Assembly (NCBI GenBank): GCA_001303705.1
Contig: LJUI01000172.1
Span: 1 to 5,095, forward strand
DNA: 5,095 bases
Origin: a candidate division TA06 bacterium SM23_40
Lineage (GTDB): Bacteria > LJUI01 > SM1-40
Direction: 5' to 3'
Below the pieces are notes generated by a model. It ran no database searches. It was not told the DNA's origin and saw nothing but the letters and a program-made list of their open reading frames with translations. Made by a program: the position numbers and the translations under genes. Of the stretch, positions 228 through 5,095 are shown one piece after another. How positions within the stretch are numbered: position 1 is the first letter of the stretch; every line of letters begins with the position of its first letter.

Positions 228-1619
228 TCAGATCGGCTCGAACCGTGCCGTGAAGTGCCGCAGAAACGGGGCTTCATAGGTCATCCGCAGCCCCCTGAGC
301 TCGTCCTTTCGCTTCACGATCTCGGCGAAGACCTGGACCACATAATCGAGGTGCGCCTGCGTGTATACACGCCGGGGAACTGCCAGCCTGACGAGCTCGA
401 GCAGCGGGTAGACCGTCTCACCTGTCTCAGGATCGACCTTCGTGAATGCGACCGTCCCCAGCTCTACGGCGCGGATACCCCCTTCGATGTACAGCGCTGT
501 GGTCAATGCCTGGCCGGGGAACTTCGACTGAGGGATGTGCGGGAGAAAGCGCTTGACATCGATGTACACAGCATGTCCCCCGATGGGCTGCAGTACGGGC
601 ACTCCCACACCAGCCAGCTTCTCGCCGAACATCCGTACCTGGGCAACCCGGTAGGCCAGGTGGCGTTCGTCCACGGCCTCCTCTAATCCGATCGCCATCG
701 CCTCGAGGTCGCGTCCGGCTAGGCCCCCGTAGGTGGGAAAGCCCTCGTACAGGATGAGAAGGTTCCTCATCGCCTCGGCGAGGTCATCGATGTTCGTGGC
801 GATGAACCCGCCGATGTTGACGAGCCCGTCCTTCTTGGTGCTGATCGTGCATCCGTCCGCATAGGAGAACATCTCCCGCACGATCTCCGGTATCGTGTGC
901 GTGCCGTATCCCGCCTCCCGCTCCTTGATGAAATAGGCATTCTCCGCGAACCGACAGGCATCGATGAACAGAGGGATGTTGTGCGGTCTGAGCAGTTCCT
1001 TGAGGGAGCGGATATTCTCCATGGAGACAGGCTGGCCCCCTCCGGCGTTGTTCGTCACGGTGAGCATGCAGATCGGTATGACTTCCGGACCGACCTCCTT
1101 GATGAACTCCTCGACCCTCTCGAGGTCGATGTTCCCCTTGAACGGATGATAGGTCTCGGGATCGGTCCCTTCAGGGATCATGAAATCTACGGCGGTCGCG
1201 CCTATGTGCTCGATGTTTGCCCGTGTCGTATCGAAGTGGGTGTTACTCGGAATCTGACTGTCAGAGTGGGCGATCGTGGCGAACAGGATGTGTTCGGCAG
1301 CCCTCCCCTGATGCGTGGGAAGAATATGTTTGAATCCGAAGAGCCGCTGGACTGTCTCAGTGAGTCGATAGAAGTTGCGGCTGCAGGCGTAGGCCTCGTC
1401 GCCCATCATGATCCCCGACCACTGGCGATCGCTCATTGCCGACGTTCCGCTATCAGTCAGCAGATCGACGAAGACCTTTTCCGCCGGAATCCCGAAGACG
1501 TTGTACCCCGCGGCCTCGAGAATCGCCTGCCGCTCCTCGCGAGTCGTGGCCGCAATGGGCTCCACCACTTTGATCTTGTAGGGTTCAGGCATCGGTGCCC
1601 CATTGTCGGTCACACTCAT
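228..1619 (-). CDS. tnaA: Tryptophanase (L-tryptophan indole-lyase), PLP-dependent
   Basis: The 463-residue product is a cytosolic beta-eliminating lyase splitting L-tryptophan into indole, pyruvate and ammonia; E. coli TnaA has 471 residues. Seen: Y77 in MGDEAY (TnaA Tyr74), Q104 and R106 in THQGR (phosphate/cofactor binding), N191 in TNNAGGG, D220 and R223 in IDACRF (pyridine N and O3' contacts), the PLP lysine K263 in STKKDG, and R416 in VPRRVYT, which binds the substrate carboxylate. Specificity positions favour tryptophanase over its close relative tyrosine phenol-lyase: D130 in HFDTTR (TnaA Asp137; Thr124 in the phenol-lyase), H455 in LRHFTA (TnaA His463; Phe448) and L387 where phenol-lyase has the essential Arg381. 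Elsewhere the text is phenol-lyase-like (AMSDRQW, KKDGLVNIGGF). It is the last gene of the run, overlapping the HD gene by ATGA. The first ATG is listed; GTG 1613 or ATG 1592 may be the true start (MPEPYKIKVVEP resembles the usual family N-terminus). Confidence 0.95.
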   Translation of the reverse strand: MSVTDNGAPMPEPYKIKVVEPIAATTREERQAILEAAGYNVFGIPAEKVFVDLLTDSGTSAMSDRQWSGIMMGDEAYACSRNFYRLTETVQRLFGFKHILPTHQGRAAEHILFATIAHSDSQIPSNTHFDTTRANIEHIGATAVDFMIPEGTDPETYHPFKGNIDLERVEEFIKEVGPEVIPICMLTVTNNAGGGQPVSMENIRSLKELLRPHNIPLFIDACRFAENAYFIKEREAGYGTHTIPEIVREMFSYADGCTISTKKDGLVNIGGFIATNIDDLAEAMRNLLILYEGFPTYGGLAGRDLEAMAIGLEEAVDERHLAYRVAQVRMFGEKLAGVGVPVLQPIGGHAVYIDVKRFLPHIPQSKFPGQALTTALYIEGGIRAVELGTVAFTKVDPETGETVYPLLELVRLAVPRRVYTQAHLDYVVQVFAEIVKRKDELRGLRMTYEAPFLRHFTARFEPI

Positions 1620-2152
1620 CCTCCCTTCAATGATTCGAAGACGATGAAATCGACACGATGGACGATGATCGCCTCCGGTGTCCGTTTCGATCTATCTCCT
1701 TCGTGCGCATGAACGGCGATCACATGGATCACCTCGGGCGGGAGATCGTGCTTGGTCGCCAGGCCCATCCCGCTGAACGGATGCCGCAGCAGCTCACCAT
1801 GCCGGCTCTTTCCGAATCCGGCTCCGCTCCGTTCGTACTCCAGCAACTTGCCCACGTCGTGCAGCAGGGCTCCCGCGACCAGAACCTCAGTATCCAGAGA
1901 GAGGTGATCGGCGAACAGATCGGCCATCACTCTCGCTGTGTCGAAGGAGATACGACAGACAGCTCTTGTATGCTCGACGATATTGACGGGACAGTCGGGA
2001 ATGAGCAGCGTAAAGGGGATCTCCGCGAGATCCCCGATCGACCACCCGCCCAGCTCGATAGCGTCCAGCCACACCGCCTCCACTTTCGACCTGAGGCCGG
2101 CATCCTCGATCAGATCGAGCTCAGGAAACAGGGTCGCAATCTCATTGGCCAT
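1616..2152 (-). CDS. HD-domain phosphohydrolase of unknown substrate
   Basis: The 178-residue soluble protein is a single HD domain. The metal-binding series is complete: H61 (VEHTRAV), H98-D99 (LLHDVGK), H124 (RHPFSG), H148/H150 (VHAHEG) and D168 (HRVDF). Five or more metal ligands fit HD phosphohydrolases that use one or two divalent metals to cleave phosphomonoesters, phosphodiesters or nucleotides. A roughly 55-residue N-terminal segment (LFPELDLIEDAGLR, then an acidic helical stretch) precedes the domain and resembles nothing I recognise. No GGDEF, sensor or membrane segment is present, so it is not a cyclic-di-GMP HD-GYP receptor. It starts 10 bp after the lyase gene with an overlapping ribosome binding site, and its TGA overlaps the tryptophanase ATG as ATGA. 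It therefore seems co-expressed with both. Housekeeping, substrate repair or a small-molecule phosphatase role are all possible; the substrate cannot be read from sequence. Confidence 0.86.
   Translation of the reverse strand: MANEIATLFPELDLIEDAGLRSKVEAVWLDAIELGGWSIGDLAEIPFTLLIPDCPVNIVEHTRAVCRISFDTARVMADLFADHLSLDTEVLVAGALLHDVGKLLEYERSGAGFGKSRHGELLRHPFSGMGLATKHDLPPEVIHVIAVHAHEGDRSKRTPEAIIVHRVDFIVFESLKGG
1620..1625 (-). promoter_or_regulatory. Ribosome binding site of tryptophanase, touching the first ATG (GGGAGG)
   Basis: Minus-strand GGGAGG directly abuts the ATG at 1619 with no spacer, which is poor for initiation there. The same site sits 6 nt before an in-frame GTG at 1613 (codon 3), an ideal distance. 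A second purine tract (GGGG, near 1598-1601) precedes an in-frame ATG at 1592 (codon 10) by 5 nt. The real start may therefore be 1613 or 1592. Confidence 0.6.
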
Positions 2153-2157
2153 CACTA

Positions 2158-2164
2158 CCCCCTC
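2158..2164 (-). promoter_or_regulatory. Ribosome binding site for the HD protein, overlapping the lyase stop codon
   Basis: Minus-strand GAGGGGG lies 5 nt before the ATG at 2152 and includes the last two bases of the lyase TGA. This fixes the HD start at 2152 rather than the in-frame ATG at 2341, which lies deep inside the lyase gene, and it suggests translational coupling of the two genes. Confidence 0.75.
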
Positions 2165-2933
2165 AGCCCTTCGGCCCGTCGTACTCGAAATCCCGCGGGT
2201 GGATGACACGCATCGGCTTCTCTCGCGTCTGTTCCTCCCGGATCTGGGCCACGAGCCCGGCCACGCGGGCAATGATGAAGAACGCATTCCCCAACTCAGC
2301 GGGAAATCCCATCTCACAGAGGACGGCGGCGATCGCCCCATCGACGTTTATCGGCAGCTTCTTCCCTGAGTGTTCCTCGAGCGCCGCCTCGATCGCCCGG
2401 GCCATCTCGATATAGTCACCGGAGACGCCCAGCTCGTCAGCGAGACTGAAGAGCTTCACCTTGCGGGGATCGACCGGATGGATCCGATGCCCGAATCCCG
2501 AGAGCCGCTTCTTCTGCGCCGCACTCTCTTCGACCAGCTCACGCGCCACCTCAGCGGACGAGCGACCTGACGCTCGTCGCCGCTCCACTGCGCCGGCCAG
2601 TAGCTTCATACAGGCCTCCACGGCGCCTCCGTGGAACCGCCCGATCGACAGGATGCCGCTCGCCAGGGCGGCCGTGAGCGGCACGCCGGTACTCGCCACG
2701 GTCCGTGCCGCGATCGTCGACGGAGGAGACGCTCCGTGATCGACCGATGAGACGAGGATCGCATCCATCAGCGCGCCGTGGGCCGGTGTCGGTTCTTCAC
2801 CCTTCAACAGGAGGTACACGACCTGTGCGAACGTCGCCTTGCCCATCAGATCTTGAATCGGGCGGCCTCGCACACTGACCTTCCCCGGGCCGATCTCGGT
2901 GATCGCTGTCTTCCACTTCGTGCCCTCTGCCAT
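2163..2933 (-). CDS. Citryl-CoA lyase-like protein (short citrate synthase superfamily)
   Basis: The 256-residue product belongs to the citrate synthase superfamily but is far shorter than true citrate synthases (about 370-430 residues). It matches stand-alone citryl-CoA lyases and the C-terminal lyase domain of ATP-citrate lyase. The catalytic triad is visible: H66 in VDHGASPPS, H149 in GFGHRIHP and D198 in NVDGAIA, equivalent to His274, His320 and Asp375 of citrate synthase and to the VDHG/ADHG, GHR and NVDG motifs of ATP-citrate lyase. HGG (101-103) and the C-terminal REEQTREKPMRVI, ending in EYDGP, are typical of bacterial proteins annotated as citryl-CoA lyase. The expected reaction is cleavage of citryl-CoA or a similar 3-hydroxy-3-carboxyacyl-CoA to acetyl-CoA and a 2-oxo acid. 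The ligase genes upstream would supply the CoA ester. ATG start with GAGAGG 4 nt upstream. The substrate is inferred; a condensing role is less likely but possible. Confidence 0.87.
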   Translation of the reverse strand: MAEGTKWKTAITEIGPGKVSVRGRPIQDLMGKATFAQVVYLLLKGEEPTPAHGALMDAILVSSVDHGASPPSTIAARTVASTGVPLTAALASGILSIGRFHGGAVEACMKLLAGAVERRRASGRSSAEVARELVEESAAQKKRLSGFGHRIHPVDPRKVKLFSLADELGVSGDYIEMARAIEAALEEHSGKKLPINVDGAIAAVLCEMGFPAELGNAFFIIARVAGLVAQIREEQTREKPMRVIHPRDFEYDGPKG

Positions 2934-3048
2934 CCTACCTCTCCCGTACGGTGACCATGCTCCTCTGTGCCATGACCATGTGTCTCGCTATCTCTCGTTC
3001 ACGCGGCGTCCGTAACATCCGTGTCGGGCCGCGGCGGACTTCTCCACC
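2934..3048. other. 115-bp gap between alpha subunit and lyase genes
   Basis: The gap contains a direct repeat TGACCATG at 2952-2959 and 2973-2980, offset by 21 bp (two helical turns), and CGCGGCG repeated at 3002-3008 and 3030-3036. A weak GTCCG/CGGAC stem (3008-3012 with 3035-3039, loop of 22) has no T-run, so it is not a convincing terminator. A 14-codon minus-strand ORF (ATG at 2979, TAG ending at 2935) stops one base before the lyase ATG. The gap could hold an internal promoter or operator, but no clear -35/-10 pair is visible. Confidence 0.35.
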
Positions 3049-3915
3049 CTAGCCCAGGGCGTCCCCGAGAAGCCGCGGTACGTCGAGAAAGGTCTTCGCC
3101 ATCTTTGCGCCCGCCGCCTCGAGTGCCTCGAGCTTGCTCTTCGCCGTCCCCATCTCCCCCTCGATGATCGCCCCGGCATGCCCCATCCGCTTGCCGCGCG
3201 GCGCAAACACCCCGCCCACCATCGCGATTACGGGCTTGGATACTTCGGGAATCGTGGGTGCCGCCATCTCCTCGTACACGCCGCCGATCTCGCCCACGAG
3301 GACAACCGCATCGGTATCGGGATCCTGATCGAAGAGTTCGAGCACCTCGCTGAAAGTCGTTCCAAGGATCGGATCGCCTCCCAGCCCCACGCAGGTCGAC
3401 GCCCCATACCCCGAGTAGGTCAGGGTATCGGCCACATAGTAGGTGATCGACCCCGACCTCGATACGGTGCCGATCCGCCCCGGGCTGAATGCGACCTCCG
3501 GGAGAATGCCGAGGAGCCCCTGCCCGGGAGAGATCACCCCGGGAGTGTTGCCGCCGAGAACCATCGCCCCGTGCGCCGCAGCCTCGTGACGAATGATGAG
3601 CATATCGTGAACCGGGATATGTTCGGGGACGATGATGACGAGCTTGATGCCCGCCCTGATCGCTTCGAGTGCACCATCGAGGACGAAGCGCGCCGGCAGA
3701 AAGAGCACGCTCGTATCGGCCCCGTGTTCGGCCACGCACTCCGCCACTGTATCGTACACCGGAACGCCGTGGACCTCGCTCCCTCCCTTGCCGGGAGACG
3801 TACCGGCCACGATCCGTGTGCCGTAGTCGAGCATCCGCTTCGTATGGAACGTGCCCGAACCGCCGGTGATGCCCTGTACGATCGCCTTCGTCTCTCTGGT
3901 CACCAGAATCGCCAC
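3049..3915 (-). CDS. sucD: Succinyl-CoA synthetase-family acid-CoA ligase, alpha subunit
   Basis: The 288-residue product matches the usual length of SucD (289 in E. coli). It is the CoA-binding and phosphohistidine subunit of the acid-CoA ligase formed with the upstream beta subunit. Seen in order: an N-terminal CoA-binding Rossmann domain (residues about 8-125) starting QGITGGSGTFH and including GTSPGKGG (38-45); GGNTPGVISPG (121-131); the ligase signature SRSGSITYY (152-160); GGDPILG; GEIGG with E209, the Glu that contacts the phosphohistidine in SucD; and GKRMGHAGAI, where H246 is the transiently phosphorylated histidine. All catalytic residues are present. Differences from E. coli SucD are GGNTPG for GPNCPG and SITYY for TLTYE, both in loops around CoA and substrate. 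The start is GTG. The family also contains malate-CoA ligase, citryl-CoA synthetase and the alpha-like part of ATP-citrate lyase, so the acid cannot be assigned with certainty. Confidence 0.94.
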   Translation of the reverse strand: MAILVTRETKAIVQGITGGSGTFHTKRMLDYGTRIVAGTSPGKGGSEVHGVPVYDTVAECVAEHGADTSVLFLPARFVLDGALEAIRAGIKLVIIVPEHIPVHDMLIIRHEAAAHGAMVLGGNTPGVISPGQGLLGILPEVAFSPGRIGTVSRSGSITYYVADTLTYSGYGASTCVGLGGDPILGTTFSEVLELFDQDPDTDAVVLVGEIGGVYEEMAAPTIPEVSKPVIAMVGGVFAPRGKRMGHAGAIIEGEMGTAKSKLEALEAAGAKMAKTFLDVPRLLGDALG

Positions 3916-4070
3916 TCGTCACATCCCTCCTCGCTCCACTGCTCGATACTCCATTCGATCCCCAACATACCCAGGCATCTTCACGACGCGTGCGGCACCC
4001 GCCTGCCCTTCCTTCCCGTCTCGCCTCTCACTATCGACCATCACACAAGGCTTCCTATCGTGGACACCAG
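3916..4070. other. 155-bp gap between beta and alpha subunit genes
   Basis: This stretch separates two subunit genes that usually abut or overlap in sucCD operons. On the minus strand it is purine-rich in the middle (GGGAAGGAAGGGCAGG, near 4000-4015). It holds a possible 40-codon minus-strand ORF (ATG at 4041, TGA ending at 3919) that stops just before the alpha GTG; the last codons of this ORF contain the alpha Shine-Dalgarno sequence. I recognise no family in it and it may be chance. I see no stem-loop followed by a T-run and no clear promoter. Confidence 0.4.
3925..3932 (-). promoter_or_regulatory. Ribosome binding site for the alpha subunit gene (GAGGAGGG)
   Basis: Minus-strand GAGGAGGG ends 9 nt before the GTG at 3915. 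An in-frame TGA two codons upstream of that GTG rules out any longer start, so the GTG is the first possible initiation codon. The ATG inside the following GATGTGA is immediately followed by a stop. The spacing is a little long for an ideal site. Confidence 0.7.
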
Positions 4071-5095
4071 CTACTCTCCCTTCGCCAGCGCCACGGCGCG
4101 CTCCACCACGTCTTCGATGGGAGTCTCGATCCCGTGTATCTCGACCCGCTCGAACAGATCGGGCCGCCGCTTCTTCGCCTCCTCGAAGATGACCATTCCC
4201 TCCCGCCACATGTTCCCGGTCATGCGCATCGCCATCGGCTTCGACAGCCCGTGCTTCTCGAGAAACATCACCACTCCCTTGGCGAAGTCATCGCAGCGCG
4301 AGATCCCCCCGAACCGGGCACCGAAGATCGCCTTGACCTGGGGATTCTCGTCCAGGAGCTCGAGCATCTTGGCGATCCGCTCAGGGGTTGGTCCGCCGCC
4401 CGAATCCATGAAGTTGGCGGGACGGCCGCCATAGTAGGTGACGAAGTCGTTCCCCATGATCCCGAACCCGGCCCCGCCGGGGAACATCCCGATATCCCCA
4501 TCGAGGTCCAGATAGGGAATGCCGTTCTCACACGCCTCCCGTTCCCGATCCGTGAGCTCCCCCTCCTCGTGGCGCTCGCCGATTCCCATCGCCGCCAGCT
4601 CGGGATGGCGGAAGAGCGCATCCTCGTCGACGCTCATCCTGGCATCGCCGCAGACAAACGATCCCTCGGCCGTCTCTATGAGTGGATTGACTTCCAGGAG
4701 CTTCGCATCGGTGGCGAGAAAGACCTCGTGGAGCCTGGCGAGGAGCGAGCCTACCTGCTGGACCGGCTTTCCCGCGAGCCCCATCTTCTTCGCCAGCTCG
4801 ACTCCTTGATGTGAGTACAGCGTCTCGCGCGGCATGAGAGAGAGACGGTGGATCTGGTCGGGATGGGCCCTTGCCGTCTCCTCGATCTCCACGCCTCCCT
4901 CGGCCGAGGCGATCGCCACGACACGGTAGGTGGTGCGGTCGATCGTCACCCCGAGATAATACTCCTTCGCGGTATCGAGGCGCTCCTCGACGAGGAGCCG
5001 CTCCACCAGATGGCCCTTGATGCGCCGCCCGAGGAGTTCAGTGGCAGCCTTCTCGGCATCGTCCGGCGAGGGCGCGAACCGGATCCCTCCCGCCT
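4071..5095 (-). CDS. sucC: Succinyl-CoA synthetase-family acid-CoA ligase, beta subunit (partial, N-terminus beyond window)
   Basis: This is the ATP-grasp (nucleotide-binding) subunit of an ADP-forming acid-CoA ligase, a cytosolic enzyme making an acyl-CoA from acid, CoA and ATP. The reading frame stays open to the window edge, giving 340 visible residues. The first visible ones (AGGIRF) align with the end of the GRGKAGG motif near residue 57 of E. coli SucC, so about 56 residues are missing; the internal GTG at 5006 is not the start. Seen: EVNPL (N136 of the visible part) and GDARM (D150), matching the Mg-binding Asn and Asp of SucC; GGAGFGIM; GGRPANFMDSGGG; FGGISRCD near the C-terminus; TAG stop. 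Loops near the active site differ from E. coli SucC: DSGGGP for DVGGGA, ARFGGISRCDD for NIFGGIVRCDL, RMTGN for RLEGN. It precedes its alpha partner. The gene symbol gives the family; I infer the acid may not be succinate, given the lyase gene downstream. Confidence 0.93.
   Translation of the reverse strand, partial: AGGIRFAPSPDDAEKAATELLGRRIKGHLVERLLVEERLDTAKEYYLGVTIDRTTYRVVAIASAEGGVEIEETARAHPDQIHRLSLMPRETLYSHQGVELAKKMGLAGKPVQQVGSLLARLHEVFLATDAKLLEVNPLIETAEGSFVCGDARMSVDEDALFRHPELAAMGIGERHEEGELTDREREACENGIPYLDLDGDIGMFPGGAGFGIMGNDFVTYYGGRPANFMDSGGGPTPERIAKMLELLDENPQVKAIFGARFGGISRCDDFAKGVVMFLEKHGLSKPMAMRMTGNMWREGMVIFEEAKKRRPDLFERVEIHGIETPIEDVVERAVALAKGE

Follow-up and report, generated by a model that had tools for sequence, protein, structure and literature searches.

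The window, the whole stretch of DNA analysed here (5,095 nucleotides), is the whole of contig C154, from a genome of 2.88 Mb that is ~90% complete. It carries five minus-strand genes, which in order of transcription encode the beta and alpha subunits of an acyl-CoA synthetase, a lyase, an HD-domain protein and a member of the tryptophanase/tyrosine phenol-lyase (TPL) family (Table 1). The intergenic gaps are 155 bp (beta/alpha), 115 bp (alpha/lyase) and 10 bp (lyase/HD), and the HD and tryptophanase-like genes overlap by 4 bp. The beta gene comprises 340 codons and has no start, its N-terminus being cut at the contig end; because the product matches SucC profiles from position 56/57, ~56 N-terminal residues have been lost. 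The alpha gene has a GTG start and encodes 288 amino acids, and the lyase gene encodes 256. The original prediction described a consecutive beta-alpha-lyase module on one strand, and gene calls, Pfam/NCBIfam profiles and matches to solved structures agree with these identities. The three-gene unit therefore stands, but the prediction omitted the coupled HD and tryptophanase-like genes, as well as aconitase-like and IDH-like genes of the wider context, which are candidate markers of a larger pathway.

Table 1. Positions of the genes in the window and of related features at other loci.
Feature	Locus	Position	Strand	Basis
SucC-like beta subunit of acyl-CoA synthetase, partial	window	4071..5095	-	ATP-grasp_2 and Ligase_CoA (Pfam/NCBIfam)
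SucD-like alpha subunit	window	3049..3915	-	CoA_binding and Ligase_CoA; phosphohistidine GHAG
Citryl-CoA lyase (CcyL) family	window	2163..2933	-	Citrate_synt; His-His-Asp triad
HD-domain metal-dependent hydrolase	window	1616..2152	-	Pfam HD
Tryptophanase/tyrosine phenol-lyase family beta-lyase	window	228..1619	-	profile matches
LeuD-like and IDH-like pair, own genome	L189	7190-8887		
LeuC-like gene, own genome	L159	7532-8836		
Tryptophanase/TPL-family gene near HD	L177	5538-6911		
Tryptophanase/TPL-family gene near HD	L044	4797-6119		
Tryptophanase/TPL-family gene near HD	L046	14548-15882		
Fusion of SucD-like alpha and CcyL lyase	L049	7016-8737		
HD - CitF - lyase, Thermoplasmatota	L006	1-4533		
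HD - CitF - lyase, Thermoplasmatota	L007	3950-6736		
HD cluster of genome G081	L184	1868-10585		
Beta-alpha pair and preceding genes, Sumerlaeota	L212	8439-13568		
Lyase homologue with T for first triad His	L099	3080-3886		

The lyase passes the citryl-CoA lyase model NF004869 (277 bits, cut-off 212), and its closest solved structure is citryl-CoA lyase 6hxp (E 7e-57). The triad segments HGG, GFGHR..DPR and NVDG and the later Arg positions agree with 6hxp, of which all catalytic positions are kept, confirming the intact His-His-Asp triad noted earlier. Every Arg aligned with a carboxylate-binding Arg of citrate synthase is also kept. In the lyase tree the CcyL family groups together, including the Hydrogenobacter-type lyase, with the C-terminal domains of AclA outside. 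One homologue (L099) has T for the first triad His and lies near ORFs that by eye resemble acyl-CoA mutase subunits.

Ligase trees contained 39 rows for alpha and 36 for beta, and alternative topologies were compared by the AU test. The ligases of the window and of locus L009 are sister to all SucCD rows (100/98 for alpha, 100/96 for beta), and the clades of 16 SucD rows (99/96) and 16 SucC rows (99/96) exclude the window, so that both subunits fall outside housekeeping SucCD. Joining the window ligase to the Hydrogenobacter-type citryl-CoA synthetase (CCS) is rejected for alpha (AU p 0.002) and beta (p 0.026), a comparison that rests on a single CCS representative, one tree row with a long branch. 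The sister position to SucCD and the rejection of the CCS grouping in both subunit trees support the independent route that had been proposed for this ligase. Joining to the fused alpha::lyase form of Planctomycetota/Verrucomicrobiota is rejected for alpha (p 0.008) and is not rejected for beta (p 0.09). One origin of all lyase-linked ligases is rejected in the alpha tree, to which this comparison is confined (p 8.6e-8), and one fusion origin for the Planctomycetota/Verrucomicrobiota form and AclA is not (p 0.31). The catalytic residues of the ligase are intact, but conserved SucCD motifs are altered in the window: alpha has TYY in place of TYE, and its GEIGGxxEE stretch reads GEIGGVYEE; in beta, NIFGGI(V/T)RCD becomes ARFGGISRCD, NGAGLAM becomes GGAGFGI and the C-terminal tail is longer. 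The window, L009 and Sumerlaeota L212 have these changes in common (TYE to TYY, NIFGGI to ARFGGI/V, NGAGLAM to GGAGFGI), and the standard motifs are kept in the canonical sucCD of the window's own genome (L102) and of the Sumerlaeota genome (L217). The CCS-type alpha L096 shows GEPGGVYEE, and as read from these sequences the motif changes of the ligase run partly toward citryl-CoA synthetase. The GGVYEE motif is not uniform, Y being replaced by C in L213/L214.

Conservation of the ligase-lyase linkage across relatives, which the original prediction had put up for survey, holds in part. The beta-alpha-lyase order is repeated in L009; in the Sumerlaeota, L011 and L016 genomes the ligase type lies on a different contig from the lyase. 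Genomes holding both were reached via the lyase, and their co-occurrence is therefore biased. The Sumerlaeota ligase is of the same type and motifs (69% alpha identity), and its beta-alpha pair follows genes for an aldehyde dehydrogenase and a class III aminotransferase on the same strand, neighbors that would also suit a dicarboxylate. The window-type alpha, with no adjoining beta, is the sole SucD-like alpha found in the L011 and L016 genomes and therefore might serve succinate there. These separate ligases are consistent with an alternative in which the lyase is an unrelated neighbor of an additional synthetase for succinyl-CoA (or another dicarboxyl-CoA), as are SucCD being the nearest clade and the score of alpha against the SucD model (succinate--CoA ligase, TIGR01019), which it passes with 366 bits (cut-off 353). 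We consider this reading improbable, given the altered motifs, the recurrent gene order in L009 and the canonical sucCD already present separately in the Sumerlaeota genome and in that of the window, where the search for a housekeeping copy located it on C67, next to POR_N and other oxidoreductase genes. The beta subunit scores below the SucC succinate--CoA ligase cut-off (294 versus 370 bits), though it is truncated by ~56 residues. Against the malate-CoA ligase MtkAB model NF010647 the truncated beta reaches 228 bits (cut-off 604), and the trees hold no verified MtkAB row.

Two-step citrate cleavage has been described for Aquificae, and duplication of succinyl-CoA synthetase has been proposed as the source of CCS (PMC5441870, PMC9560492). 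Like CcsAB and Ccl of Hydrogenobacter thermophilus/Aquificae, the window combines a two-subunit ATP ligase with a separate CcyL-family lyase, and its alpha shares GGVYEE with L096. In contrast, its ligase comes from another branch, its alpha is of SucD size (288 amino acids versus 337 in L096), and its linked genes are of HD and tryptophanase-like type, compared with an upstream ICDH gene in L096. ATP-citrate lyase (AclBA) contains the same beta, alpha and lyase parts in identical order, but in the window alpha and lyase are separate ORFs, as had been predicted for an unfused activating and cleaving pair. The alpha and lyase domains of AclA are distant outgroups to the window proteins, and the first triad His, kept in the window lyase, is F in the three AclA rows. 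The fused alpha::lyase of Planctomycetota/Verrucomicrobiota has the same lyase family, with an HD gene following at many loci, but differs from the window in its fusion and in the ligase lineage indicated by the alpha tree. SucCD shares fold and phosphohistidine with the window ligase as its closest clade, but is set apart by its conserved motifs and its own clade. From these comparisons the ligase looks to have been recruited from the SucCD lineage, independently of the two known routes.

Related lyases were found at 54 loci, which are not independent since they are mostly from Planctomycetota and Verrucomicrobiota. An HD gene lies nearby on the same strand at 33 of them; other neighbors are aconitase-family (24 loci), IDH-like (15), PrpD-like (7) and tryptophanase-like (4) genes. 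Alpha is fused to the lyase at 39/54 loci (L049 and 38 further, in Planctomycetota/Verrucomicrobiota), and the more complete of these clusters additionally contain HD, homoaconitase-like, IDH-like and PrpD-like genes. The HD-lyase link extends to Sumerlaeota, L009 and Thermoplasmatota with differing gene orders. At two Thermoplasmatota loci the order is HD - CitF - lyase, with LeuC::LeuD after the lyase in L006; L007 stops shortly after the lyase. Outside the window type, CitF or the alpha-lyase fusion takes the place of the ligase ahead of this lyase. The L006 CitF (citrate CoA-transferase family) scores 501.6 bits versus 501.45. A reductive tricarboxylic acid cycle has been proposed for Thermoplasmatota (PMC9802188). 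Elsewhere in the genomes of L006 and L007 there are AclA-like long ORFs. The G081 cluster (L184) unites HD with a CitD::CitE fusion, CitF, an IDH-like gene and two aconitase-family genes, and by eye also includes an XRE-like regulator.

The window probably encodes an ATP-dependent CoA-ligase for citrate or a homologue, derived from the SucCD lineage, together with its lyase. ATP would phosphorylate the alpha histidine. The acid then activated by the phosphoryl group would be a tertiary hydroxy tricarboxylic acid (citrate most likely), whose acyl group would pass to CoA. The CcyL-type lyase would then cleave the citryl-CoA-like thioester through His/His/Asp to acetyl-CoA and, most likely, oxaloacetate as the 2-oxoacid. 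Ligase and lyase chemistry in sequence would make the pair act like ATP-citrate lyase, or reversed as an ATP-conserving synthase. We infer this sequential action, the substrate, the direction and any role of the HD protein. Citrate is most likely the acid, judging from the lyase residues and the replacement of the ligase by CitF, and homocitrate is its main rival. The window's genome also has a full citrate synthase on C182, an aconitase on C40 and an ICDH-like protein, so that a role for citrate only looks partly redundant. It further contains a LeuC-like gene on C52 and LeuD-like and IDH-like genes on C121. Leucine synthesis was rejected as the reason for these genes, as neither an HMGL-like protein nor KARI was found in this ~90% complete genome. 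With an isomerase and a dehydrogenase but no conventional partner synthase, the ligase-lyase pair would be the natural step at the C-C bond. The substrate segment of the IDH-like protein gave no decision among citrate, homocitrate and methylmalate. In a homocitrate module, 2-oxoglutarate and acetyl-CoA would interconvert with homocitryl-CoA and then with homocitrate and ATP, and homoaconitase-like and homoisocitrate-dehydrogenase-like enzymes would lead to 2-oxoadipate in an alpha-aminoadipate-type route, forward or reversed. The absence of an HMGL-type homocitrate synthase from a genome with separate TCA enzymes would suit such a module, as would a saccharopine-dehydrogenase-like gene close by at some loci. 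The linked Planctomycetota aconitase scores 687 bits, above the cut-off of 530, with the homoaconitase model, which could, however, catch other aconitase-like enzymes too, and the best models of the IDH-like proteins are AksF/homoisocitrate dehydrogenase, with scores below the equivalog cut-offs. As the lyase pocket residues agree with citryl-CoA lyase and CitF is a citrate/citramalate transferase family, we regard homocitrate as unlikely. Still less probable is citramalate, whereby pyruvate from the tryptophanase-like enzyme and acetyl-CoA would interconvert with citramalyl-CoA, and LeuCD-like and IDH-like enzymes would lead to 2-oxobutyrate. The LeuC/LeuD-like and IDH-like genes in a genome without citramalate synthase and the pyruvate-forming beta-lyase family gene adjoining HD would fit, but the lyase keeps every citrate-synthase-type Arg, and the absence of KARI makes isoleucine synthesis unlikely.

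Cleavage of citrate by a ligase and a lyase is used as a genomic marker for the reductive TCA cycle. Here a SucCD-derived ligase and CcyL are paired in a genome that has its own citrate synthase and sucCD, which points to more than one origin for the pairing and implies that SucCD or CcyL, taken singly for annotation, can mislead. The pair apparently sits in an undescribed wider tricarboxylate pathway, in which the acid-activating step varies by lineage. A bolder version, which we put forward only tentatively and think rather unlikely in full, is a conserved pathway of several bacterial phyla and Thermoplasmatota with HD, aconitase-like and homoisocitrate-dehydrogenase-like proteins. Ligase and CcyL would there replace the HMGL-type synthase at the homocitrate C-C bond, and the acid-activating step would have been recruited several times (SucCD-type, fused alpha::lyase, CitF, CitDEF). 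Together, the recurrent genes of HD, aconitase-like and IDH-like type mark out a new pathway that can be tested.

The HD protein matches Pfam HD with 41.9 bits (cut-off 22). Structure comparison for its substrate gave the general HD fold alone, with YhaM the nearest (9h3f, Z 16.9, rmsd 2.9 over 160 amino acids); PDB sequences searched by profile yielded no match, and a search of the accessible literature for a CcyL-HD link found no paper. The metal-ligand residues H61, D99, H124, H148 and D168 are invariant, and the HD-motif His (H98) is A in the aligned Planctomycetota/Verrucomicrobiota copies, which retain the other metal ligands. The association of the HD protein with CcyL-type lyases spans bacterial phyla and includes Thermoplasmatota. 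In a set of 98 genomes that contains the window's, a close HD is present in 12, a close lyase in 7 and both in 4, and thus HD also occurs without this lyase. A tryptophanase/TPL-family gene lies near or next to HD in the window, in L177 and at four Phycisphaerae loci. HD adjoins a tryptophanase-like gene in G045, and an IDH-like gene in G058 and G006.
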